IMG/VR virus record: IMGVR_UViG_3300050821_001089 | Span: 1 to 27,132 of that record | From: a virus | Direction: 5' to 3' (one strand) | Length of the DNA stretch: 27,132 bases | In this document: positions 7,123 to 27,106 of the stretch, one piece after another | How the letters are laid out: every line of letters begins with the position of its first letter | How positions within the stretch are numbered: the first letter of the stretch is position 1 | Program-made: the position numbers and the translations under genes | Notes under the pieces: model-generated | Database searches by the model: none | Seen by the model: only the letters and a program-made list of their open reading frames with translations | What the model was told of the DNA's origin: nothing

Positions 7123-9534
7123 TTATTCAACTCCAACTGAACCAGTTGAAAGATTCTTCATATCATAGAGTGTATAATCAGTTTTTTGGGCTGATTTAGA
7201 TAGTCGTCCAATAATATTATTTTTATAATTTTTCTTCATTTCTGGCATTTCCATACCAGTGCTCACTATACCCATAGAACTATTGACAAAATCCATGCCT
7301 TCTTTATTTATAGGAATAACGATTTCAGGATATCCAGCTTCTCCAACGAGAGCATGGACAGGTCCAGTTACGACTCCACCAGATGCTTCTTTGACTTCTT
7401 TTTTACCTAATAAACCAAAAACATCAAAAGGTGATAAAGTTTTTCTAACTGAAGAAAATAAAGTGTTTATATTTTTTTGTATTTCATCATAATTTTTGTT
7501 GAAAATAGCGGATAAAATTATCTTAAACATTCTTTGTGGTTCATTGGAACTTACTGTATGATACAGAGTCAAAAGTTGTTTATTGAGGTCTTCTAGTGAA
7601 TTACGATTAGAGTTTTTAGATATACTCAACATTGTTCCGTTCAGTGTATTCAATCTATTCGTTTGTAAAGCTAATTGAACTCCCACGAGAGAAGGAGGAA
7701 TGAAATCTCTGCCCAAATTAGACATTGTAATATTAGAAATCAAACTATCATGGGCTAATTTTGATAACGAATTATCAAGGCGAAAAGACACTTTTTCGGT
7801 TTGTGCTATATCCTTGAATGCTGGACTTTGGATAATATCTAAAATATTAGAAGATATTTGCTGACTTGCTATAAACTCGTCTGATTTTTCATATCTAAGA
7901 TTTTTTAGAGTTCTTATACTTTCTTTAGAAAAATTATTGACAATACTTTCCACACTAATAAATATTCCAGATAATATTTTTTTGCCTAAAGCATCATTAC
8001 TAAACTTTCTTGAGTTTATAAAAAACTCTAATTGTTGACGACCATATGAAACTAAAGCATCTTTATTTCTATCATCTATAATTCCATTATAATTATTGAA
8101 GACTTCTTCTAATATATGGCTTTGGACATAGGCTTCGGCTTCATTTTGGATGCTTTGGCGCAATCCCGCATATGCTCTTGTATTATTTTCTCCAGCAACC
8201 AACTCATTTCTATAAGTTTCTTTACCGACAACTATTTGCTTAAGAACTGCCCATACTACTAATAATTCATCAAATAAATTATCATTTTTGATAGATGTAA
8301 AGATATTGACGAAAACGTTAAACCCTCTTTTTAGAAAGTCAACTCCTTCAGTCCATAGATTTTTGATATTTTCTGACGTAAATCCTATCTTTGTTCCAAT
8401 GTAATCATCATAAAACTTAGTGAGACCTTCTGGAGCTGTTATAAAAGTATAGACATCACTAATATAACCCACTAACTGGTCTTTTTTTTCTAAAAAAGTA
8501 CTTTTTAAGGCTTTAACATTATCTGGTCCTAACCAGCTCTTGACCTGTTTACTCACCCAATCCCATGCCATTGTAGCAACTGTTCCAATAAAATTGATTA
8601 TAGGCTTCCAAAACACAGCACCAATATATGCAGCAACTGTTATTCCAGCAACAACAAGAAGAAAACCAATAGGTGAAGATGCGAAATCAACAAGTTGTTC
8701 TACAAACCATTTACCCACTGAAATAATTGGGGCAGTTATAACATTGAAGATTCCTGATATGACAGCCCATCCTATTTTAGCCAAAGCCTTGAATCCATCC
8801 CATAGTTTTTCTACAACCCAAATGACACTATTAGAAATCAAAGTCAATCCAGACCAAATAATAGATGCGGAACTAAGAAATAAACCTAACGTAGGTCCAT
8901 GACTCTTGAAAACTCTAAAAGCTTTTCCTAATGTATTATCAAAAAACGAACAGAAACTTCCATGACCTATGAACCGACCAACTGATTTTGCTCCAGAGTA
9001 GAGACCAGTTCCATATTTTTTGATACCGTCCCACGTTTTTCCAAAGAATGTTCTGCTTGTTGAAATAGCCTGTGTTGTGTTTTTTAGAGAAGCATTACTC
9101 AACGTTCCAATATCTTTAGATAGTTTATTAGTAGCATCATTATTTGTTTTTATAGTGGTTTCTATTTTTTTATCTAATTGCTTCTTTTCTAATGCCGCAA
9201 ACTCATCATCAGTATCAAGTTCGTCTTGGATTTCATCAGTTTCTTCATAAACTTTATCCTGATGTTTATCATTTGTAGTCTTTTGGTGTTCAGCAAACCG
9301 AGTGAGATAGTCCATGATGTCACTATCAGTTTTGAGAGATTCTTCTCCTTTTTTTATAAGAGCATTCAACGTCTGTGTAGATTGGTCTCCAGATTTCTTA
9401 GACTTCTCTATCATCTTTTCAACAGTTGTTTGAATAGACTGTAACGTCAACTTCAGACTGGATACTTGTTTATCGTCTGGCTGAGGCGCTTGAAGCTTGT
9501 CAAATATATCTTTTGGTGGTATATTGTCAGCCAC
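7123..9534 (-). CDS. tail tape-measure protein
   Basis: An 803-aa protein. Residues 25-160 are charged and predicted coiled coil. Residues about 210-325 are hydrophobic amphipathic helices with the most apolar stretch at 286-322. Residues 717-745 carry the hallmark tape-measure closing motif: ASGGVVTGPVHALVGEAGYP, then EIVIPI. Tape-measure proteins fill the tube lumen, fix tail length and lead DNA into the host. At roughly 0.15 nm per residue this length would suggest a tail near 120 nm, an estimate from the family rule. The start is GTG at 9534-9532, preceded by TAGGTA at a workable distance. It lies 5 nt after the 85-aa frame and 2 nt before the paralogous 835-aa gene. The chaperone pair immediately upstream is the standard neighbour of a tape-measure gene. 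Confidence 0.85.
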   Translation of the reverse strand: MADNIPPKDIFDKLQAPQPDDKQVSSLKLTLQSIQTTVEKMIEKSKKSGDQSTQTLNALIKKGEESLKTDSDIMDYLTRFAEHQKTTNDKHQDKVYEETDEIQDELDTDDEFAALEKKQLDKKIETTIKTNNDATNKLSKDIGTLSNASLKNTTQAISTSRTFFGKTWDGIKKYGTGLYSGAKSVGRFIGHGSFCSFFDNTLGKAFRVFKSHGPTLGLFLSSASIIWSGLTLISNSVIWVVEKLWDGFKALAKIGWAVISGIFNVITAPIISVGKWFVEQLVDFASSPIGFLLVVAGITVAAYIGAVFWKPIINFIGTVATMAWDWVSKQVKSWLGPDNVKALKSTFLEKKDQLVGYISDVYTFITAPEGLTKFYDDYIGTKIGFTSENIKNLWTEGVDFLKRGFNVFVNIFTSIKNDNLFDELLVVWAVLKQIVVGKETYRNELVAGENNTRAYAGLRQSIQNEAEAYVQSHILEEVFNNYNGIIDDRNKDALVSYGRQQLEFFINSRKFSNDALGKKILSGIFISVESIVNNFSKESIRTLKNLRYEKSDEFIASQQISSNILDIIQSPAFKDIAQTEKVSFRLDNSLSKLAHDSLISNITMSNLGRDFIPPSLVGVQLALQTNRLNTLNGTMLSISKNSNRNSLEDLNKQLLTLYHTVSSNEPQRMFKIILSAIFNKNYDEIQKNINTLFSSVRKTLSPFDVFGLLGKKEVKEASGGVVTGPVHALVGEAGYPEIVIPINKEGMDFVNSSMGIVSTGMEMPEMKKNYKNNIIGRLSKSAQKTDYTLYDMKNLSTGSVGVE

Positions 9535-9539
9535 GATTG

Positions 9540-9797
9540 TTACCTACTGCCTCCGAGTTTGCTCAAGAGCTTGAATAAGGATTCTATACCCTTATTAGCC
9601 CATTCCATAATTGATTTTATAAAGTCCTGCCGAGCCTTCTGCTTTTCTTCATAAAACCTCTTGAAATTATGTATAACATACATAAACTCATCTGCTGACA
9701 TATTTTCGGTATCTGACCACGTGACTCCGCCTTCAGAATACATACATAACTCAATTTGCTGATTCAGGATGGTGGCGAAATGGTCCGTCGCCATCAC
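9540..9797 (-). CDS. small reading frame, probable T-part of a tail assembly chaperone fusion
   Basis: An 85-aa frame between the chaperone and the tape-measure gene. It is charged and helical, with aromatic and acidic residues (DEFMYVIHNFKRFYEEKQKA). It could start at GTG 9797 or at ATG 9794, which overlaps the upstream TGA by one base (TGATG). No good Shine-Dalgarno sequence sits at the usual distance; the nearest purine run is about 20-30 nt upstream. The frame is open upstream of these starts through a T7 run that forms an in-frame -1 slippery site for the upstream gene. The simplest reading is that much of it is made as the C-terminal part of a 349-aa fusion, like lambda GT. Independent translation by reinitiation remains possible. 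No domain was recognised in the sequence itself; the role rests on position and frameshift signal. Confidence 0.7.
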   Translation of the reverse strand: MMATDHFATILNQQIELCMYSEGGVTWSDTENMSADEFMYVIHNFKRFYEEKQKARQDFIKSIMEWANKGIESLFKLLSKLGGSR

Positions 9798-9809
9798 ATT
9801 ATAAAAAAA
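9773..9809 (-). promoter_or_regulatory. probable programmed -1 ribosomal frameshift signal
   Basis: Read on the minus strand, the chaperone gene ends AGT TTT TTT ATA ATG TGA. Bases 9809-9803 form the heptamer T TTT TTT in exactly the X XXY YYZ register. After a 9-nt spacer (9802-9794) comes a stem-loop: TGGCGA at 9793-9788 pairs with TCGCCA at 9778-9773 around a 9-nt loop. A -1 slip continues as Tyr-Asn-Val-Met-Ala-Thr into the 85-aa frame with no stop, giving 262+2+85 = 349 residues. Slippery site, spacer and hairpin match known bacterial -1 signals, and the location just before the tape-measure gene is where tail-chaperone frameshifts occur. Seen directly: heptamer, register, stem and open frame. 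Inferred: that shifting happens. Confidence 0.75.
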
Positions 9810-10588
9810 CTCAGAAGCGATGCCTCTTCTTTGTCATTTTCATAAACATCAGATTTGAACCTAAACTCTGGTTTTATACCAAAATCTAAAGTCTTCATGA
9901 AATCATCAATAATCATAAGATGCTCTTGGCGGCAATATTCAGTCAAGAACTTCAATTTGTCATCAAATGACATACCCTCAACATCTTCATATTTTTCAGA
10001 TGAAAGGTCTGTTTTATATTTGACGCCCTTTACAACTCCAGCATAGGCACAATAGCGCTTATCAACCATGGAATCTTTCGTTCCATTCATTTTTAGCCAC
10101 TTTTCTATATCTTTTTCTGTTTTACGAGTCACTGGACCTAAAACAAGCTGAATCGTTGGGGTTAAATCTATGGCTTTATTGATGGAACCTTCATACTTGA
10201 CAACTGGAAAGGTGCTAATATCAACTTCAATATCGTTGACCACCTGTTCTGATTTTGGACAAATATGACTTATTTTAGCCTTTGGACCAGTCGTTAGTTG
10301 TCTTATTTTCATCAAAAGAAAGGCTCTATCTTGAATACAGACGGTATCATTGTCAAAGGGCTTATCGTTTATAGTTTCAACACAATTTATAAGAATCCTA
10401 TCAAAACACTCGTTTATAAGGTACTCATCCTTCTTTTCCAGAGCCTTCAGGAAGTCTTTTTGGTCCTTCACCTTCATAGCACGGATGGTAGCTTTTGTGC
10501 CATCTGAGGGCAAGGAAACGGCATCCTGGGGCATGGATTTGTTGATGTCTACTGCGACACGCTTCTTGAAGTCATTGAAATCGACCAT
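9794..10588 (-). CDS. gp26/gp51-type baseplate hub assembly protein, probable tail assembly chaperone (G-like)
   Basis: A 264-aa soluble protein without signal peptide. It looks like the T4 gp26/gp51 base-plate family (gp26 is about 208 aa, gp51 about 249). The N-terminal part has RAMKVKDQKDFLKALEKKDE, the middle has DRAFLLMKIRQLTTG followed by a C-P-x-S turn and VVNDIEVDIS, and the C-terminal third is helical (DDKLKFLTEYCRQEHLMIID). T4 gp26 and gp51 help assemble the baseplate hub. Here the gene lies two positions before the tape measure and ends in a slippery site, so a chaperone binding the tape measure before tube growth is the likely role. It starts with ATG at 10588 behind AAGAGG and has its own strong promoter after a terminator. 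Family assignment is from memory of the pattern. Confidence 0.6.
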   Translation of the reverse strand: MVDFNDFKKRVAVDINKSMPQDAVSLPSDGTKATIRAMKVKDQKDFLKALEKKDEYLINECFDRILINCVETINDKPFDNDTVCIQDRAFLLMKIRQLTTGPKAKISHICPKSEQVVNDIEVDISTFPVVKYEGSINKAIDLTPTIQLVLGPVTRKTEKDIEKWLKMNGTKDSMVDKRYCAYAGVVKGVKYKTDLSSEKYEDVEGMSFDDKLKFLTEYCRQEHLMIIDDFMKTLDFGIKPEFRFKSDVYENDKEEASLLSFFIM

Positions 10589-10707: not shown

Positions 10708-11343
10708 TTATTGCGGATTGAACGGAGTTGTCCAAGCGCCATTAGGTGGTGGAGAACCACGACTAATTTGAACGGAAGTAGAGCTATTGACAAATGAATT
10801 TGCCATAGCTTGAGTTCCGAACTGGTCAACAACGCGGAAGTAATCCATGCTAAAGGTTACTGGGAATGATTCGAACGTTGCATTTTGGTCATGACCAACT
10901 TCAATGTCACCAACAGCCTTAGGCCATGCACCTACAAGACCAAAAAGTGATACTTGTTCGCCATCACGAGCTAACTGAGCAACACCAATTTGGTCACTCT
11001 TATACATGTTGCTATGACCTACATTTCCTAGACCAATATCATAAGCTAGGGTCTGCCATGTGAAGAATATTCTACGAAGTTGATGAGCTTCATCACACAG
11101 GAATGTGACATCCCAATCCTGGAAGGTAGGAGTTCCACCAACTTTGATGTTTACGCCTTGGAAAGGAATATCAATGCTTCCGAGAGTTTGACCAGGAAGC
11201 TTTGTGCTACGAGCCATTGCCGTCATTGTTTGGTCAGTTCCAACTTCTGGAATGTGAATAAGAAACAAGAATGGACGAGCTGGATCGCCAATAACCTGTC
11301 TGAAATTATATAAGTTGAATGGAACATCTGGTTGTAGTGGCAT
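10708..11343 (-). CDS. gp19: gp19-like tail tube protein
   Basis: A 211-aa protein with the tube-protein fold signature: an early strand after a Pro (RPFLFLIHIPEVG near residue 24), the MARSTKLPGQTLGSIDIPFQ segment at about 43-62, then VNIKVGGTPTFQDWDVTFLC, an amphipathic helix (RRIFFTWQTLAYDI), and a late strand pair near ESFPVTFSMDYFRVV. This order is typical of gp19 and of the related contractile-tail tubes. The protein polymerises in hexameric rings inside the sheath. It is longer than T4 gp19 (about 163 aa), mainly through a C-terminal tail rich in Ser, Pro and Asn. ATG at 11343 has CAGGAG upstream. It follows the sheath gene by 52 nt, and a terminator closes the unit. Confidence 0.93.
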   Translation of the reverse strand: MPLQPDVPFNLYNFRQVIGDPARPFLFLIHIPEVGTDQTMTAMARSTKLPGQTLGSIDIPFQGVNIKVGGTPTFQDWDVTFLCDEAHQLRRIFFTWQTLAYDIGLGNVGHSNMYKSDQIGVAQLARDGEQVSLFGLVGAWPKAVGDIEVGHDQNATFESFPVTFSMDYFRVVDQFGTQAMANSFVNSSTSVQISRGSPPPNGAWTTPFNPQ

Positions 11344-13448: not shown

Positions 13449-15248
13449 CTAAAAATCTTTATCTTTATTTTTCTTTTTTAAGGCTTGGCGCTTTTCGTCT
13501 AATTCAAGCCAATTATCACCATGAAGGTCTTCATCTCTTTCTAAAAAGGCATCATAGGCAGCTTCTACATCGGGATCGCTAATAGCTTCTTCCTCAAGAG
13601 GAGCATCATAAGTAACTCCTAATTGAAGTTCTGGAGGCTCTAATTTTACTTGAGGAGCCTTTTTAGGCTTGTTGATGTTCCATGTATCTCGAACATCCTC
13701 AAAGAAACGCGATTTTAGAAAATGAGCAGCCCAAATACAGGTTATAACACAGTCGTCGTGGTTGTTTCTACCGCCCTTGGCTTTATAAACTCCAGGAGAT
13801 ACTTCTTCGAAATAACCTAATTGGTCTATTGTTTGAGAATCTCTAATTATAAGACGTTCCTGTTCTAGTTCTTCCTTGAACCAGACACATGCTTGTGGTT
13901 TACTTACTTTATCTGAGCAAATGCCATAAGCGTCATCTTCATAATCAAAATAAATGTTTTCATATTCTTTTTCATCAAATAAACGAGTGAGAACTTCATT
14001 GCTCAATCCATTTGTCTCTCCAATGAGATAAGCATTATTCCAATATGACAAAGTATCATGAATAAAATCTGTAAACATTGGAGGAGTAACATCGTTCCTA
14101 GCCCAAATAGCAACTTGTTCAGCCGGTTTATGTGGATAGAAAGTAATATCAAAAACATTCATAACTGAAAAATCAGAACCCACTCCACCTGAAGTATCTA
14201 TACTAACAAGATACTTGTGTCCAGGCTGGGGTTGTTTCCATAATTTTGAGTAATCATCAGGTTTTAGAACTGGTTCTTCCCACTTCAATTTTTTGATAAT
14301 AAAATTTGCATCAATCAGTGTAACAGATGAACCGACAAATTGGCAACCGAATTCTTGGTTGAATTTTATAACTGATCCTAAATCCCTAATAGTTCTTTCT
14401 TTCCATTTTTCGTCACGTTCTGGAACTTCTGACCATTTGACTTCAACATGATGAAAATTATTCGTTCCATCTATAGAATCTTTCCACAATTTGTAAAACT
14501 CATTTGCTGTTCCATTGGGAGTTGAAACTACTATACATGAACCACCAGTAGAAATAGTTGGATAATTAGCAGTCCAAAACTCTTCAGCAATATTTTGTGG
14601 GACGTGGCTGTACTCGTCGCAGAATAAACATGAAACGCTCTCGCCACGTAGAGCGTCGGCTGATGTTGCTTTCGCAAAAATAGTACATCCATTCTCAAAT
14701 TTCACATTGAAGGCATTATATTCTACAACTCCAGATTTGATATGAAGTGGCAAATATTCATACGCATATTTTATTTCAGCTAAAATACCTTTCGCAGTAT
14801 CGGCTTTGTTAGCTAAGACTGCTATCGTTTTATCCTTATTGAACATAGCAAACCACAAAAGATATATTGCTGAAGTGGTTGTATTATGACTCACGAAACC
14901 ATTAGAATAAAACTCGTGTTCGTCTGAATCAACTTCAACATCATACATATTCTCTGCTGGAACATCTAATTTCTTTATTTCAATACACTTGAAATAACCA
15001 TCGTCAGTTTCTATAGGCATTCCAACCGTTATATCTTGTAAATAAATAGATGTATGATTTTTGGTATATAGAATATGGGTATCTGCGCCCTTCAAGTCAT
15101 CACCGTTTTCAAGCTTTATATACCAAACATCGTAAGGAATAGTCTTGAAAACTTTTGTAATTGGCTTCCAGCCTTGAGGAGTTTTTATGCTAAATCTATT
15201 TGGTTTTATTATTACAGTTTTCTCAAATTTACGCAATGGCTGGAGCAT
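13449..15248 (-). CDS. terL: large terminase subunit, C-terminal part fused to a C-intein
   Basis: 599 aa. Residues 1-122 are a C-intein: block B-like G-A-D-T-H-I-L at about 54-60, block F-like YDVEVDSDEHEFYSNG, and block G F-V-S-H-N ending at 122. Residue 123 is Thr, the +1 splice nucleophile. Residues 123-599 are the gp17-type terminase after the Walker A Lys: TTTSAIYLLW, Walker B LFCDE (D211, E212), coupling motif STPNG (242-246), and nuclease residues D351 in SIDTSGG, E411 in LIGET and D498-D499 in NHDD. All catalytic positions seem intact. After trans-splicing with the 84-residue N-extein the enzyme would have 561 aa (T4 gp17: 610). An in-frame TAG lies 12 nt before the ATG at 15248, so no earlier start exists; AGAGG lies between them. 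The gene overlaps the endonuclease gene by 20 nt. Confidence 0.95.
   Translation of the reverse strand: MLQPLRKFEKTVIIKPNRFSIKTPQGWKPITKVFKTIPYDVWYIKLENGDDLKGADTHILYTKNHTSIYLQDITVGMPIETDDGYFKCIEIKKLDVPAENMYDVEVDSDEHEFYSNGFVSHNTTTSAIYLLWFAMFNKDKTIAVLANKADTAKGILAEIKYAYEYLPLHIKSGVVEYNAFNVKFENGCTIFAKATSADALRGESVSCLFCDEYSHVPQNIAEEFWTANYPTISTGGSCIVVSTPNGTANEFYKLWKDSIDGTNNFHHVEVKWSEVPERDEKWKERTIRDLGSVIKFNQEFGCQFVGSSVTLIDANFIIKKLKWEEPVLKPDDYSKLWKQPQPGHKYLVSIDTSGGVGSDFSVMNVFDITFYPHKPAEQVAIWARNDVTPPMFTDFIHDTLSYWNNAYLIGETNGLSNEVLTRLFDEKEYENIYFDYEDDAYGICSDKVSKPQACVWFKEELEQERLIIRDSQTIDQLGYFEEVSPGVYKAKGGRNNHDDCVITCIWAAHFLKSRFFEDVRDTWNINKPKKAPQVKLEPPELQLGVTYDAPLEEEAISDPDVEAAYDAFLERDEDLHGDNWLELDEKRQALKKKNKDKDF
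14883..15248 (-). other. C-terminal half of the split TerL intein
   Basis: Codons 1-122 of the C-terminal terminase gene. The segment has the Hint-fold order SIKTPQGWKPITKVFKT, WYIKLENGDDL, the A-D-T-H block B, QDITVGM, then the HEFYSNGFVSHN end with penultimate His and terminal Asn. At 122 residues it is much longer than the 35-45 of a usual C-intein, so block B sits in the C-part, as in the AceL-TerL type of atypically split intein. Splice junction Asn122/Thr123 is at 14883/14882. Confidence 0.9.
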
Positions 15249-16365
15249 TCTTTTTAGCCTCTAATAATTGTAATATTTCATTATAAAAATCATTTATTGC
15301 TTTAGTTTTATCAGCATTGAAATCTTTTTCTTTTATATGTCGGATAGTAAGTTTAGGATTACAAATTAGTATATTCTTTTCTCGTTCATCATAATGAGCC
15401 TGTCTCCCACGTTGTACTCCATGCCAAAAATCGCCATCAAACTCTATAATATATTCTATATCTTTTACATAAAAATCAAACAAATAAACTTTTTGATTTT
15501 CGTCTATCATACAGAATTCGTGATTCTTATTACTTTTGTCAATTGTTTCTATTGGTCTTTTCATAAGTTGAGCAAAATAAATATCTGGTAAAGTATTTAC
15601 ATCGGTAAACTTATTATAAATGCCTATAAAAAGTTCTTGAGATATTTTAGAAAATCCTCCGCCACTCCATAATTTTGCTTTAGCAATTCTTTCCAGTTCT
15701 TCGGGGCTTTTGTTTTTTAGAGTTTTTTGCCATTTATCTTGTCTCTCTTGCCATATTTTTGTACCTTCAGCTTCGCCGTGTTTTTCAATACATATTTTTA
15801 GTGAAAATGTTTGTTGACGTTCGTGAACCAGTTGCACTGCTTCTTCTTCGGTTTTTCCTTTATTTATCCAATATTGTGTGTGTACTGGACTTAGTTCAAA
15901 GTTTGGATCGTCTTCTTTTTTCTTTTCTCTAGTCTTTAAGGATTTATCTACTCTAGTAGTATGCTCATTGTACCATTTTGTTCCACATGGAAAACTACAG
16001 AATTTGTCATAAACAATTCCTAATCCCTTGAAAGGCAAATCAACTTTACAAGACATACATTTACCTGTTGGATTTTCCATAGGAATATATTTGTGAGCAT
16101 ATTCTATTATTGTAATTTCTTTGTGTTTTTTCTTTACATGTTTAGCCAAGGTTCCCTTACTAAAACATTTTTCATGACAAATACCACAAAAAATATCTTC
16201 TTTTATTTTTTTAGGTTTATTGTTGTCTTCTGATGCTTTATAATTATGATCGCGTTCTCTATGTTTGGCGAGCGAAACCTCAATGTTATATTCTTTTCCA
16301 CAATCTGGGCAAGAAAAAACTTCTATTGGCTTAATAATCAGTTTTCCATCAAGATACAGATCCAT
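15229..16365 (-). CDS. zinc-finger Vsr-like homing endonuclease between the TerL halves
   Basis: 378 aa. Two C2H2-like fingers (C19, C22, H35, H40 and C60, C63, H76, H81) and one C4 site (C103, C106, C123, C127) form a DNA-binding front. Residues about 160-215 are helical and include KHGEAEGTKIWQERQDKW, a module also found as repeats in the endonuclease at 20746-21651. The C-terminal third is a Vsr/EDxHD-type nuclease: VYLFDFYV (D297), then YIIEFDGDFWHG (E308, D310, H315) and a late IRHIKEKDF strand. GGAGG precedes the ATG. It starts 23 nt after the N-half stop and overlaps the C-half by 20 nt. A gene for this enzyme class between split-intein halves is the known fractured-gene arrangement; the likely target is an unsplit terL allele. 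The target site cannot be deduced here. Confidence 0.85.
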   Translation of the reverse strand: MDLYLDGKLIIKPIEVFSCPDCGKEYNIEVSLAKHRERDHNYKASEDNNKPKKIKEDIFCGICHEKCFSKGTLAKHVKKKHKEITIIEYAHKYIPMENPTGKCMSCKVDLPFKGLGIVYDKFCSFPCGTKWYNEHTTRVDKSLKTREKKKEDDPNFELSPVHTQYWINKGKTEEEAVQLVHERQQTFSLKICIEKHGEAEGTKIWQERQDKWQKTLKNKSPEELERIAKAKLWSGGGFSKISQELFIGIYNKFTDVNTLPDIYFAQLMKRPIETIDKSNKNHEFCMIDENQKVYLFDFYVKDIEYIIEFDGDFWHGVQRGRQAHYDEREKNILICNPKLTIRHIKEKDFNADKTKAINDFYNEILQLLEAKKNAPAIA

Positions 16366-16388
16366 ATAACTACCTCCAATAAATGAAG

Positions 16389-16751
16389 TTATTTCATATC
16401 TTCATTATATAGTAAATCAAATAAATGTCCAATAGTAATTTCTTGTTCTTCTCCAGTTTCATTATCTTTGATAGTTATTAGAGTATCAAAACTCTGGCAC
16501 TTACCCGATTGCCTACTCGAAAGTACTATTACCTTAGTATTTGATTCAAATGCTGATAATAATTTTTTCTGATAATCTCTTAGCTTTATAAGTTGTGCGC
16601 CAGTTTTTGCGTGAATGATACGATAGAAGTTCTCAGCGAAATAAATTACCGAATTAGCGCTTTGAGCATATTCAGATATCATTTTTGTATCATATTCTAT
16701 TTTTAGTCCAGGACGTTTTATATGTCCATGGTCATCATATTTGATTGGCAT
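16389..16751 (-). CDS. terL: large terminase subunit, N-terminal part fused to an N-intein
   Basis: 120 aa. Residues 1-84 match the start of gp17-type ATPases: SVIYFAENFYRIIHA, then LIKLRDYQKKLL (Q-motif region), and VIVLSSRQSGK, the Walker A loop ending exactly at Lys84. Residues 85-120 begin with Cys85 and form an intein block A (CQSFDTLITI) plus a short helix (IGHLFDLLYNEDMK). The TAA follows at once. Splicing to the C-part would restore S-R-Q-S-G-K-T-T-T. ATG at 16751 overlaps the small-subunit gene by 17 nt and has GAAGGA about 8 nt before it. Alone this piece cannot bind or hydrolyse ATP, so DNA packaging depends on trans-splicing. A simple sequencing error is excluded by the intact intein ends and the full gene in between. 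Confidence 0.95.
   Translation of the reverse strand: MPIKYDDHGHIKRPGLKIEYDTKMISEYAQSANSVIYFAENFYRIIHAKTGAQLIKLRDYQKKLLSAFESNTKVIVLSSRQSGKCQSFDTLITIKDNETGEEQEITIGHLFDLLYNEDMK
16392..16499 (-). other. N-terminal half of the split TerL intein
   Basis: Codons 85-120 of the N-terminal terminase gene. It starts with the catalytic Cys (TGC at 16499-16497) and block A, and stops after 36 residues, before where block B would be. Typical split inteins have N-parts of about 90-120 residues; the AceL-TerL N-part is about 25. The break is therefore of the rare early type. Confidence 0.9.
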
Positions 16752-20188: not shown

Positions 20189-20743
20189 ATGGAAGGATAT
20201 ATTTATGTTTTAACGAGTCCAAGCGGCAAACATTATGTAGGTCAAACTTGGAATATAGCTATGAGATGGAATTGTTATATGAAATTATACACTAAACAGC
20301 AACGCAAATTAGACAGAGCATTAAGAAAATATGGACCCGAAAACTTTATATTTTATATTATTGATGCGGCTAAAACACAAGAAGTTTTAGATAAAAAAGA
20401 AATATATTGGATTGGCTCATATGATGCGGTTAATAATGGCTATAATATAGAAGAAGGAGGGCGTTTTTGTAAAACAACAAATCCCAGAAATGAAGAACTA
20501 AACTTTACTGTAGATACTGACGAAAAAGCAAAAATAGAATATCGTGCTCAATTATTTGGGTTCAAGAACGTCAGTGATTATATCCGTTTTGTTTCTATGA
20601 ATTCATTTTTGATGGCTGGAATTGATACAGTCAACATGAATGGAGAAACGAACCAATCGGTTCAACAGAAAAAAGAAATTGAAGACTTATTAGCAAAGAC
20701 AATGAAAACTGTCCAGAATTATTTCAATAAAGAAGAGAAATAA
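20189..20743 (+). CDS. GIY-YIG homing endonuclease
   Basis: 184 aa. Residues 1-92 form the GIY-YIG nuclease: YIYVLTS (4-10), HYVGQT with YVG at 16-18, a conserved Arg at 26, the metal-binding Glu at 71 (KKEIYWIGSYDA) and Asn at 86 (GYNIEEGG). Residues about 104-140 look like a ribbon-helix-helix DNA-binding unit: a strand NFTVD, a helix KIEYRAQLFGF, a turn, then SDYIRFVSM. The rest is a polar helical tail. It lies on the strand opposite to the structural genes, between gp13-like and gp14-like, with a 2-nt gap to the next endonuclease gene. AAGG precedes the ATG. It is likely a free-standing mobile gene; no intron boundary was seen near it. Confidence 0.92.
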   Translation: MEGYIYVLTSPSGKHYVGQTWNIAMRWNCYMKLYTKQQRKLDRALRKYGPENFIFYIIDAAKTQEVLDKKEIYWIGSYDAVNNGYNIEEGGRFCKTTNPRNEELNFTVDTDEKAKIEYRAQLFGFKNVSDYIRFVSMNSFLMAGIDTVNMNGETNQSVQQKKEIEDLLAKTMKTVQNYFNKEEK

Positions 20744-20745
20744 AG

Positions 20746-21651
20746 ATGAAAAATAAAACTAAACTACCGCCTATACCAACAGAGAAGACGTGTCCAATTT
20801 GTGGAACAATATTTTATAGGAGAGAAAGTGAGAAATCAACAGATTGGAGAGCAAGAGCAACATGCTCTAAAAAATGTGGACACAAAGCAATCTCAAAAAA
20901 GAAAAAGGGCTGGAAAGGCTATTTCCAGTGGTTATTAGAACACGAAGGACCAGAAGCAGTTGCTGCTTATAAAGAAAAGAGAAAGAAGACTTATAAAACT
21001 ACATACCAGAGACTTATAGATAAGTATGGTCCGAAACGCGCTCCTGCGGAATTTGAGAAATATAAAAAGAGAATGTCAAAAAGAAATAAAGGTCAAAAAT
21101 GTCAATATGATTTATTAGTTGCCAAATATGGTGAAGAAGAGGCTACTAAAAGATATAATAAAACCAGAAAGAAAATATCAAAAATTGTTAAAAAGAGAGG
21201 GAAAAACGTTAAAAGATTATTATATGAAAAATATGGAGAAAAAGAAGGAGAACGCCGTTATAAAGCAATGAGAAAGAAAATGTCTATCAAAAAGAAACAA
21301 TATCTAAAAGATAATCCTGACAAAATTCCGTATCTATTATATAATTCTTCTAAAATGAGTTATCCTGAAAAGATAATGTACGAAGTTCTAACTAAAGCAA
21401 ATATACAATTTCATTATAATTATCCGATTGGTGGATATGCCTACGATTTTGCTATTATCAACAAAAAGATAGATATTGAAGTTGATGGGGCTTTACATCT
21501 GCGTTCGGATATAGCCAAACGAGATAAAATTAGAGATAAATATACAAAATCAATTGGATGGAAAGTTCTGAGATTTACGGCTAAAGAAGTAATGTATGAT
21601 ACAGAAAACGTACTAAAACGCATAAAATTGTTTATCAAAAGAAAGTTATAA
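20746..21651 (+). CDS. Vsr/DUF559-like endonuclease with zinc site and internal repeats
   Basis: 301 aa and strongly basic. Residues 16-44 contain a C4 zinc site (C16, C19, C40, C44). Residues 64-182 hold four related helical units centred on E-G or Y-G (about 67, 94, 128 and 163), with the pattern KYGxxxxxxxYxxxRKKxS, for example KYGEKEGERRYKAMRKKMS. Residues 205-290 are a PD-(D/E)XK-type nuclease of the Vsr/DUF559 kind: YPEKIMYEVL, YAYDFAI (D234), KIDIEVDGALH (E245, D247, H251), and VLRFTAKEV. The gene follows the GIY-YIG gene by 2 nt, with the stop TAA two bases before ATG, so the two are co-translated. The repeat unit is also seen in the endonuclease inside the terminase. Homing activity is inferred; no target or accessory gene is visible. 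Confidence 0.82.
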   Translation: MKNKTKLPPIPTEKTCPICGTIFYRRESEKSTDWRARATCSKKCGHKAISKKKKGWKGYFQWLLEHEGPEAVAAYKEKRKKTYKTTYQRLIDKYGPKRAPAEFEKYKKRMSKRNKGQKCQYDLLVAKYGEEEATKRYNKTRKKISKIVKKRGKNVKRLLYEKYGEKEGERRYKAMRKKMSIKKKQYLKDNPDKIPYLLYNSSKMSYPEKIMYEVLTKANIQFHYNYPIGGYAYDFAIINKKIDIEVDGALHLRSDIAKRDKIRDKYTKSIGWKVLRFTAKEVMYDTENVLKRIKLFIKRKL

Positions 21652-23531: not shown

Positions 23532-26324
23532 TTAGAATATTCGCACAGCATAGATAGACCCTTGCCATGCATCGGCGCCGCCAATTTCATGCCACATAAT
23601 AAAGGCCATAAGATACAGTGTTGTATTAGTCGTACAGTTGAAATTGACAGTTGGTGTGGTCAGTGTAGGTTGTATTACATCACTTGATTTATTTGTCGAA
23701 AACCAACATGCGGTTGCCCCTATTCCAAAGAGACTTCCACCAAAGCCACCGACTAGTGTTCCATTTGCTGGAGTTGAAGAAGTAGAAACCTCTATTCCAC
23801 ATCCTGATACGTTTGCGGTTGAAGATGGTGGAATCAGCCACAAGCCAGGACATGCAGCAGCAGAAACTAACCAATATCCTGGTGTAAGAGTAATTGAACA
23901 TATTTGACTATAAACACCTTGACTGCCATAAGAAACACCAGTGCCATAATTTGCTATTACTTCACCAACCTGACCAGCAGATGCGCCTACTGTTCCAGTT
24001 TGATTTCCCCAAATAACATTGCCTTGGAATGTTGATGTAGGTTTAGTTAGGCCACCAGCATATAGACAATCATTATTAGATGTTGGAGTGAGAACAAGTG
24101 CTCCTGCTGGAGAAACTTGAATGTTAGGTGCCGATGAAATGGAAACTGTAGTACCATAAAGAACTTGGCTTGATGGAGCATTTGTAAGTCCAGCACCAGA
24201 ATATCCGCTAACTCCTGAATAACCACTAAAACCGCTGAAACCTGAATATCCAATAGAAGTATACCATTGCGACCCATCCCATTGTAATGAGGATATAGCA
24301 TATTGCCCAGACAATGTTTGCGTTGAAGTGCCGTTTATAGTGTGCGTTGCTCCACCAGAAATAGTTATAGTATTTACTGATACTTTCTTGTATATCTCGT
24401 AAGTCTGTCCAAAGTTTGGCGTAGCAGGTAAATTGAATATAAGATTGCCTGATGTGCTATCACCAACAATGACCATATCAGTCGTAGCCAATGTATAGTT
24501 AGCCGTCTTGGTTTGTGGCGTAAGTTCAAGCGAGCCTATTTGAGCGTTAGACGCCGAAATTACCGATGTCCAAGTGTTGTTAGCTAAAAGATATGACGGA
24601 GGATTACCGCTAATTTGGAAGACAGTAGGAGCATTCACTACACCTGCCGCCGAGGCTGAGAAGGTTTGGATTTGTTGCCAGGCTCCAGACGCAGCAAGGA
24701 ACATATCAGCAAAACCATCACCAATGGCTGGAGCTGGAACGAGTCCTGCCATTGGGGTTTCAATATTGTATAACTGGAAATATTGGACGAAGATTTTTAC
24801 GCTTGGGTTGAGTTGAAATCTGTAATACCTATATCCAGTGGTATTTGAGAAAGTTGAAGTCATATTGACGGTTGTTGGAAGCGACGTTGGAGGGTAAATC
24901 ACCGTTATGCCTGTTTGTATGGTTGTGTAAGTCACATTGTCATGTGAGCCATCTACTTCCCACACGCCTGTAACTGTTAGGGCTCCATTGTTATAATTTC
25001 CAGCACGTGACACGAATTGGTCACATACTACGTTTGCTCCACTACCAAAATCAACTATGAATTGCCCGAGCGAACTTCCACCTTCATCGGTTGATGTATT
25101 CACATTATCAAATAAGTGCCAAGGATTTGGAAAGTTTGTTCCCGCTATGATATCATATGGACTTGGTGTAGTCGCTGATGTCATAACTGGAACAAGACCA
25201 ATTGGAGCACTTCCGTTAGTATCACCAACAAAGTTTGGAATAGTGGACCATTGACCGTCAGCATTTAGAAAATAATTTCCAGCAGATATTTCCGCTACAG
25301 TCGCAGCAGGAACTGAACCACTTATGCTATAATACCATTGTGTTCCATCCCATTGAAGCGACGTTGAATTGTATTGGTTATTCAGAGTAACTGAAGATAA
25401 TCCACTGATAGTCTGTAGATTTCCTGCTGAAATTGTAATTGAGTTTGTGAGACTCTTTTTATATATTTCGTAGGTTTGACCGTAATTCGGAACTAATGGA
25501 AGGTTAAAGGTTATATTTCCATTGGTGCTATCACCAACAATAACCATATCAGTTGTGAGAATATTATAATTAGTAGTCTTTGTCTGAGTACCATATTCAA
25601 GAGAACCAATCTGAACATTATTTGCCGATATATTATTAGACCATATACCATTAGATTGTAAATAATACGGAGAGCCAGAAGTTTGTGCTGTTGTTGGTCC
25701 TGGAACAGCGCCTGAAATATTTACAGAAAAGAGGTTGGCGCTTCCGCCAGAACCAGAGAATCCTGATATACCCTGGCTGCCGCTAAATCCTGACACGCCA
25801 CTGAAACCTGAGAATCCGCTCGTTCCACTAACTCCATTACTTCCTGTTCCTCCTGAATATCCAGATACCCCGCTAAATCCAGAAGTACCACTTACTCCGT
25901 TAGAACCAGTTCCTCCAGAAACACCACTGAAACCTGAGAATCCAGACGTTCCAGAAACACCATTGCTTCCTATAGTTCCATTTGTTCCAGAGAATCCACT
26001 AAAGCCTGATATACCAGAGGTTCCAGAATAACCAGAGAATCCTGAAGTTCCACTAAAACCACTTACTCCACTAAAGCCAGAAAATCCAGATATTCCTTGA
26101 CTACCAGTCGCTCCACTAAAGCCAGAATATCCACTAAATCCTGATGCTCCTGCTCCTCCAGCAGAACCAGAAAGAGCGATCTGTGAAACACTTCCCGCTC
26201 CATTCAATAGATATAAATTGCCGTCATTTTTATAATATAAAATAACTTCGCTGGTTAATGGAGGAGTATTTGGAGTTGAACTCATTCCATTGAAGATAAC
26301 GCCACCATCATTGAAACCAGCCAT
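23532..26324 (-). CDS. collagen-like tail fibre or adhesin with discoidin-like domain
   Basis: 930 aa from ATG 26324, which has AGAGGG five bases upstream; a GTG at 26330 lies inside that ribosome site and is less likely. An N-terminal 50 residues (LTSEVILYYKNDGNLYLLNG) resemble fibre attachment ends. Residues about 55-195 are Gly-x-Ser/Thr triplets without proline, probably a trimeric triple helix. Two duplicated 120-residue units follow (about 215-334 and 571-691), each with TTDMVIVGDST, GQTYEIYKK and SLQWDG. Between them, about 391-521, is an F5/8-type C (discoidin/CBM32) fold: PWHLFDN, GQFIVDFGSG, GVWEVDGSHDNVTY, GYRYYRFQL, a likely sugar binder. A second short collagen patch is near 692-710. 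The last 170 residues are a beta-rich tip (PGYWLVSAA, TNTTLYLMAF). Receptor binding is the inferred role. Confidence 0.85.
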   Translation of the reverse strand: MAGFNDGGVIFNGMSSTPNTPPLTSEVILYYKNDGNLYLLNGAGSVSQIALSGSAGGAGASGFSGYSGFSGATGSQGISGFSGFSGVSGFSGTSGFSGYSGTSGISGFSGFSGTNGTIGSNGVSGTSGFSGFSGVSGGTGSNGVSGTSGFSGVSGYSGGTGSNGVSGTSGFSGFSGVSGFSGSQGISGFSGSGGSANLFSVNISGAVPGPTTAQTSGSPYYLQSNGIWSNNISANNVQIGSLEYGTQTKTTNYNILTTDMVIVGDSTNGNITFNLPLVPNYGQTYEIYKKSLTNSITISAGNLQTISGLSSVTLNNQYNSTSLQWDGTQWYYSISGSVPAATVAEISAGNYFLNADGQWSTIPNFVGDTNGSAPIGLVPVMTSATTPSPYDIIAGTNFPNPWHLFDNVNTSTDEGGSSLGQFIVDFGSGANVVCDQFVSRAGNYNNGALTVTGVWEVDGSHDNVTYTTIQTGITVIYPPTSLPTTVNMTSTFSNTTGYRYYRFQLNPSVKIFVQYFQLYNIETPMAGLVPAPAIGDGFADMFLAASGAWQQIQTFSASAAGVVNAPTVFQISGNPPSYLLANNTWTSVISASNAQIGSLELTPQTKTANYTLATTDMVIVGDSTSGNLIFNLPATPNFGQTYEIYKKVSVNTITISGGATHTINGTSTQTLSGQYAISSLQWDGSQWYTSIGYSGFSGFSGYSGVSGYSGAGLTNAPSSQVLYGTTVSISSAPNIQVSPAGALVLTPTSNNDCLYAGGLTKPTSTFQGNVIWGNQTGTVGASAGQVGEVIANYGTGVSYGSQGVYSQICSITLTPGYWLVSAAACPGLWLIPPSSTANVSGCGIEVSTSSTPANGTLVGGFGGSLFGIGATACWFSTNKSSDVIQPTLTTPTVNFNCTTNTTLYLMAFIMWHEIGGADAWQGSIYAVRIF
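24252..24614 (-). repeat. second copy of the duplicated fibre unit
   Basis: This encodes a 121-residue copy containing L-L-A-N-N-T-W, TTDMVIVGDSTSGN, GQTYEIYKK, TITISGG and SLQWDGSQW. It matches 25323-25682 residue for residue at many positions in the protein. The stretch with a nucleotide-level match is shorter. Confidence 0.8.
25323..25682 (-). repeat. first copy of the duplicated fibre unit
   Basis: This encodes the 120-residue partner of 24252-24614 (QSNGIW, TTDMVIVGDSTNGN, GQTYEIYKK, SITISAG, SLQWDGTQW). The two copies flank the discoidin-like domain, which may therefore have been inserted into, or captured between, duplicated units. Confidence 0.8.
25740..26162 (-). repeat. collagen-like coding repeat
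   Basis: About 47 Gly-x-y triplets, mainly GFS, GVS, GTS and GYS. A larger 20-22-residue unit with TGSNGVSGTSGFSG and a S-G-V-S-G or similar end occurs three times in tandem with small changes. There is no proline, unlike vertebrate collagen. The near-identical units make length change by slippage or recombination likely. The plus-strand complement is a proline-rich open frame without biological support. Confidence 0.9.
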
Positions 26325-26355
26325 TGACACCCTCTTTTATAAAGTTTTCTAATGG

Positions 26356-26737: not shown

Positions 26738-27106
26738 ATGTTTTTATCTAGGCTTCATGGGCTTATTAGAGAACATATAATAAAACCTTTAACTCGTTCA
26801 GGAAGATGGAGGACAGTTCGTAAAGACTTTTTAGAAGCCCATCCAACATGTGCTGCATGTGGTGGGACCAAGTGGTTGAATGTCCATCATAAAATGCCTT
26901 TCCATGACGAACCAGAAAAAGAATTAGACCCTAATAATCTTATAACATTATGTATGGGTAAAAATGAATGTCATCTCAAAATAGGGCACGGAAACAACTT
27001 CAAGTGCTTCAATGACAAAGTTACGGAGATGGCCAAAGAGGATTTAGAACATCCAGAAAAACGCGGTTTATTAGAAGAACAAGCTAAAGAAAATAAGAAG
27101 TGTTAA
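26738..27106 (+). CDS. HNH endonuclease
   Basis: 122 aa. Residues 20-37 are a basic lead (SGRWRTVRKDFLEAHPT). The HNH fold follows: C38-x2-C41, the VHHKMP segment with H50-H51, N67 in DPNNLITLC, then C72, C78-H79 and H84. The zinc-binding C-x2-C and late Cys/His support an intact beta-beta-alpha-metal nuclease. The tail is charged and helical. GGAGG lies about 10 nt before the ATG. It follows the 110-aa gene by 6 nt. In phages such short HNH proteins are either homing nucleases or packaging partners; here, away from the terminase and next to other mobile nucleases, a homing role is more likely. The end at 27106 is complete; the last 26 bases of the window hold no visible feature. Confidence 0.88.
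   Translation: MFLSRLHGLIREHIIKPLTRSGRWRTVRKDFLEAHPTCAACGGTKWLNVHHKMPFHDEPEKELDPNNLITLCMGKNECHLKIGHGNNFKCFNDKVTEMAKEDLEHPEKRGLLEEQAKENKKC

Follow-up and report, generated by a model that had tools for sequence, protein, structure and literature searches.

A conserved slippery site predicts a -1 frameshift in the tail assembly chaperone gene of a divergent T4-like phage

The phage represented by the window, the whole 27,132 nt stretch of an IMG/VR virus record analysed here, very probably uses a programmed -1 frameshift to make two forms of its tail assembly chaperone (TAC), a short TAC-N and a TAC-NC fusion, to judge from the sequence and its conservation. We infer that the shift occurs with an efficiency such that most ribosomes would terminate at the TGA codon at 9796-9794 to give TAC-N, while a minority would slip back one base on the heptamer T_TTT_TTT (9809-9803) and continue in the -1 frame to give a 349 aa TAC-NC. 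By analogy with lambda gpG and gpGT, TAC-N would serve as a coat for the tape-measure protein and TAC-NC would bring in tail-tube subunits through its C domain; neither product would be present in the virion.

The tail genes of the window lie on the minus strand in the order sheath, tail tube, a 264 aa protein, an 85 aa frame and a tape-measure-like protein. The tail tube gene (10708-11343, minus strand; PHROG 45, E 6.9e-37) is directly upstream of the 264 aa gene (9794-10588, minus strand), whose product matches PF12322 (E 2.4e-16), the family of T4 gp26-type 'baseplate hub' chaperones, and PHROG 150 (E 8e-18); the 803 aa tape-measure-like protein (7123-9534, minus strand; PHROG 167 tape measure, E 5.9e-9) adjoins the small frame downstream. 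A short chaperone gene thus sits between tail tube and tape measure, as in the G/GT type. The window also encodes a T4-type terminase (PF03237), about 35 % identical to terminases of T4-like phages, and a sheath protein (PF04984) alongside the gp26-type chaperone, and the 264 aa gene is very probably the TAC-N gene of a T4-like myovirus. A search of phage sequences gave no match for the tape measure, and a search of viral_contigs gave no direct relatives of the 264 aa and 85 aa proteins.

Several other genes of the window deserve mention. The large terminase (13449-16751, minus strand) looks fractured into parts: an N part that ends in an intein-like start (16389-16751, minus strand), a 378 aa zinc-finger protein similar to a homing endonuclease (15229-16365, minus strand), and an intein-like end joined to the terminase C part (13449-15248, minus strand), an arrangement resembling the 'fractured gene' split inteins. 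Genes for GIY-YIG, DUF559/Vsr-like and HNH nucleases (20189-20743, 20746-21651 and 26738-27106) lie on the plus strand, opposite to the structural genes. A probable tail fibre, the 932 aa protein at 23532-26330 (minus strand), combines collagen-like repeats (GFSG/GVSG) with a C-terminal phage depolymerase domain.

The 3' end of the chaperone ORF (10588-9794, minus strand) reads AGT (9811-9809), TTT (9808-9806), TTT (9805-9803), ATA, ATG and TGA (9796-9794). The initial annotation placed T_TTT_TTT in exact slippery register with a stop 6 nt beyond it, and described a -1 frame open into the 85 aa frame; the sequence agrees on each count. The heptamer (9803-9809, minus strand) has the X_XXY_YYZ register suited to a tandem -1 slip, and its 3' end is followed after 6 nt by the TAC-N stop (9794-9796, minus strand), which overlaps an ATG of the -1 frame (TGATG). 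From 9803 that frame begins TAT AAT GTG ATG GCG ACG GAC (YNVMATD) and is open to a stop at 9542-9540; this TAC-C region (9540-9803, minus strand) comprises 87 post-shift codons plus the stop, contains the 85 aa ORF at 9540-9797, and with the 262 residues before it gives the predicted length of the fusion. When codons were shuffled within genes, 0.25 % of trials placed T_TTT_TTN in the last six codons of the chaperone gene (P=0.0025), and 8 % of windows had it at that position in one gene or another (0.08), a result that taken alone is suggestive; since the site is also conserved in relatives, it is beyond what chance would give. A TATAAT promoter within the slip site (TTTTTTTATAATG) was considered and set aside, being absent from the relative L093 (TTTATCATG).

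Searches with the tail tube and with the terminase gave close relatives, and the two closest found by way of the tail tube are L093 (from a 262,529 nt contig, the same as L094) and L095. In both, seven T's stand in the register seen in the window, at 12 nt from the stop; the -1 frame is likewise retained and carries the motif FFY..MATDHFAT.., and the stop-start overlap reads TAATG where the window has TGATG. Since two other contigs have the same run in register, the T-run of the window is unlikely to be a sequencing error. Conservation among related phages, proposed from the outset as a check, thus holds for the run and its register and fails for the GC-rich 6 bp stem-loop that had been put forward with them. 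That stem, TGGCGA (9793-9788) paired with TCGCCA (9778-9773) around a 9 nt loop (9773-9793, minus strand), is present and starts 9 nt past the heptamer as described, but a role as stimulator finds little favour: it is no better than shuffled sequence (z -0.61; 51 of 200 shuffles fold equally well), one of its pairs is lost in L093, and it is probably not a needed element. A second candidate is the purine-rich GAAGAGG (9823-9829, minus strand), a putative internal Shine-Dalgarno stimulator 13 nt upstream of the heptamer that is kept in L093 and L095; across clusters, anti-Shine-Dalgarno pairing in this region was not above synonymous expectation (Fisher P 0.07).

Junctions were also collected more widely, from annotated phages and 80 IMG/VR loci, the chaperone being located in each by profile, and all counts that follow refer to 74 distinct gp26/small-frame junctions of T4-like phages. 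An in-frame T_TTT_TTN lies 0-2 codons before the gp26 stop in 72 of them, ending in TTC (64), TTT (7) or TTG (1), and the -1 frame is open in all 74. The set covers Kyanoviridae, several Straboviridae other than T4 (phages of Aeromonas, Cronobacter and Vibrio), phages of Rhizobium, Sinorhizobium and Stenotrophomonas, Pseudomonas phage pf16 and others. The heptamer is missing only from the Ackermannviridae phage CRW-SP2 (L010, 3001-3962) and Vibrio phage D495 (L011, 2932-3888). Both encode a gp26-type chaperone, and TAATG is present in their -1 frame.

The chaperones share a C-terminal GLxDFF/SFF motif conserved at the protein level, and a T-run with an overlap might on that account be a by-product of this protein end and of closely packed genes, without any frameshift. 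The codons themselves were therefore tested, in 23 clusters at no more than about 60 % identity, conditioned on the protein end and on each locus's own codon usage. The joint chance of a T before the first Phe and of TTT for that Phe in all 23 clusters is 10^-13.4, a figure to be taken as a guide, since the clusters are related and it overstates their independence. Every one of the 72 junctions encodes the first Phe as TTT and has a T just before it, regardless of whether the preceding codon specifies S, A, D or N, and even GC-rich phages with TTC for 71-82 % of Phe use TTT at the slip site; T4, which has separate genes, keeps the two Phe residues but encodes them as TTC TTT. The slip-site codons are constrained far beyond the protein requirement, and the by-product account is extremely improbable. 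The run of seven T's in the window would also allow RNA polymerase to add or drop a U, so that some mRNAs encoded the fusion. Against such transcriptional slippage, a C or G closes the run in 65 of the 72 heptamer junctions (T_TTT_TTC or TTG), leaving six T's, and the window, read on either strand, has other T-runs at least as long; this explanation is hardly credible. Six T's are fewer than transcriptional slippage usually requires.

A different route to the C domain would be translational coupling, with ribosomes stopping at the TGA and restarting at the overlapping ATG to give a separate 85 aa protein, like the 'gp51' annotated in a large number of T4-like genomes. The overlap (TGATG or TAATG) is found in the window, L093 and L095 and also in VH7D, Marzo and RHph_I1_9, and L010 and L011 combine TAATG with the lack of a heptamer. 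Many relatives, however, have no such start: the -1 frame of phiAS5, LPCS28 and many cyanophages reaches its first ATG, GTG or TTG 50-95 nt past the stop, inside the conserved domain, and the M of the window corresponds to L in many cyanophages. With no start codon before the conserved domain, the second frame of many cyanophages would be made by the shift alone. In the window itself nearly all other genes have a Shine-Dalgarno-like sequence and the second-frame start has none, and coupling leaves the fixed slippery codons unexplained. Coupling in place of a frameshift is accordingly quite improbable; the lack of an early start codon, the change of M to L and the missing Shine-Dalgarno sequence together point to the fusion as the common product. 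Because the window, L093 and L095 share the ATG that overlaps the stop, coupled re-initiation could additionally yield a free C domain, and it is conceivable, if rather unlikely, that this lineage makes its longer, lineage-specific C domain in two ways, within the fusion by frameshifting and as a separate protein by restarting at the overlapping ATG; were that so, the longer C domain could set a different chaperone ratio. For the frameshift itself, the proposed joining of the chaperone frame to the small frame is strongly supported by the heptamers (72/74), the open frames (74/74), a codon constraint of about 10^-13 and the several phages with no usable second-frame start. Many T4-like records misannotate 'gp51', either as a separate or truncated gene from an internal ATG or by omission (S-CAM1, LPCS28, VH7D): at L005 (3718-3890), L006, L009 and L128 public annotations shorten or omit the C domain, with a late-starting ORF in phiAS5 and none in the three phages just named.

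The fold predicted for TAC-N is consistent with its assignment. When an AlphaFold2 model of the 264 aa protein (pLDDT 85.7, pTM 0.82) was compared with the PDB by Foldseek, the best matches included the HK97 tail assembly chaperone 2ob9 (probability 0.92, E 0.23), and the same entry headed the VIA comparison of the predicted structure (Z 7.3, 84 residues, rmsd 4.2), followed by the uncharacterized 3fgx (Z 6.8) and 5ir0 (Z 5.3), the remainder being at 2.7 or below. The predicted structure thus has the TAC fold at a moderate Z; a Z under 8 is by itself moderate evidence, and it agrees with the gene order and the proposed mechanism. A search of PDB sequences with the TAC-N profile returned only marginal VipA matches (E 0.29). 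The likeness to 2ob9 lies in the predicted fold of residues 13-104, whereas identity is 13 % and the window protein has an additional domain and is the longer of the two.

The C domain is less easily placed by sequence, its match to the TAC-C family of T4-like phages being weak (hmmsearch E 0.1 with a six-sequence set; hhalign P 0.0036, probability 9). T4 itself is instructive here. The TAC-N profile finds T4 gp26 (E 2.5e-23), corresponding to the short form, and also T4 gp51 (7.5e-10), whose end is matched by the TAC-C profile as well (1.2e-7). As gp51 consists of a TAC-N-like part and a TAC-C part, the fused form would exist as a single T4 gene; genes 26 and 51 lie on opposite strands and thus look like separate genes for the short and the long form. 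T4 thus differs from the window in having two genes and no slippery codons, in keeping with the view of the initial annotation that T4 is not known for this shift. The abstract of Vladimirov and colleagues reportedly describes the frameshift as conserved in several T4-like groups, with T4 using genes 26 and 51.

Compared with lambda, the window shares a -1 shift site at the end of a short chaperone gene, a C domain in the -1 frame and a position just upstream of the tape measure, so that the equation of this site with lambda G/GT is upheld by gene position and predicted fold. The tail of the phage described here differs in being contractile and T4-like. The lambda slip site, G_GGA_AAG, is also unlike T_TTT_TTT. 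The suggestion that the window carries the mechanism into a T4-like gene set for the first time does not stand, as a passage in PMC12846349 credits Vladimirov, Gautam & Davidson 2022 (doi 10.1016/j.virol.2021.11.003) with poly-T slippery sequences in T4-like TAC-N genes, and a passage in PMC10274946, citing Vladimirov et al. 2022, has some T4-like phages carrying a short and a long copy instead, T4 being the exception. The frameshift mechanism in T4-like phages is already reported, and the window adds a further member. It shares with the T4-like TAC-N/TAC-NC genes, as described in those passages, a gp26-type chaperone before the tape measure, a poly-T slippery site and a -1-frame C domain, but belongs to a divergent lineage whose C domain is longer (87 versus about 60 codons) and shows only weak sequence similarity. 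The comparison supports a lambda-type chaperone frameshift with deep roots among T4-like phages, T4 being the two-gene exception.
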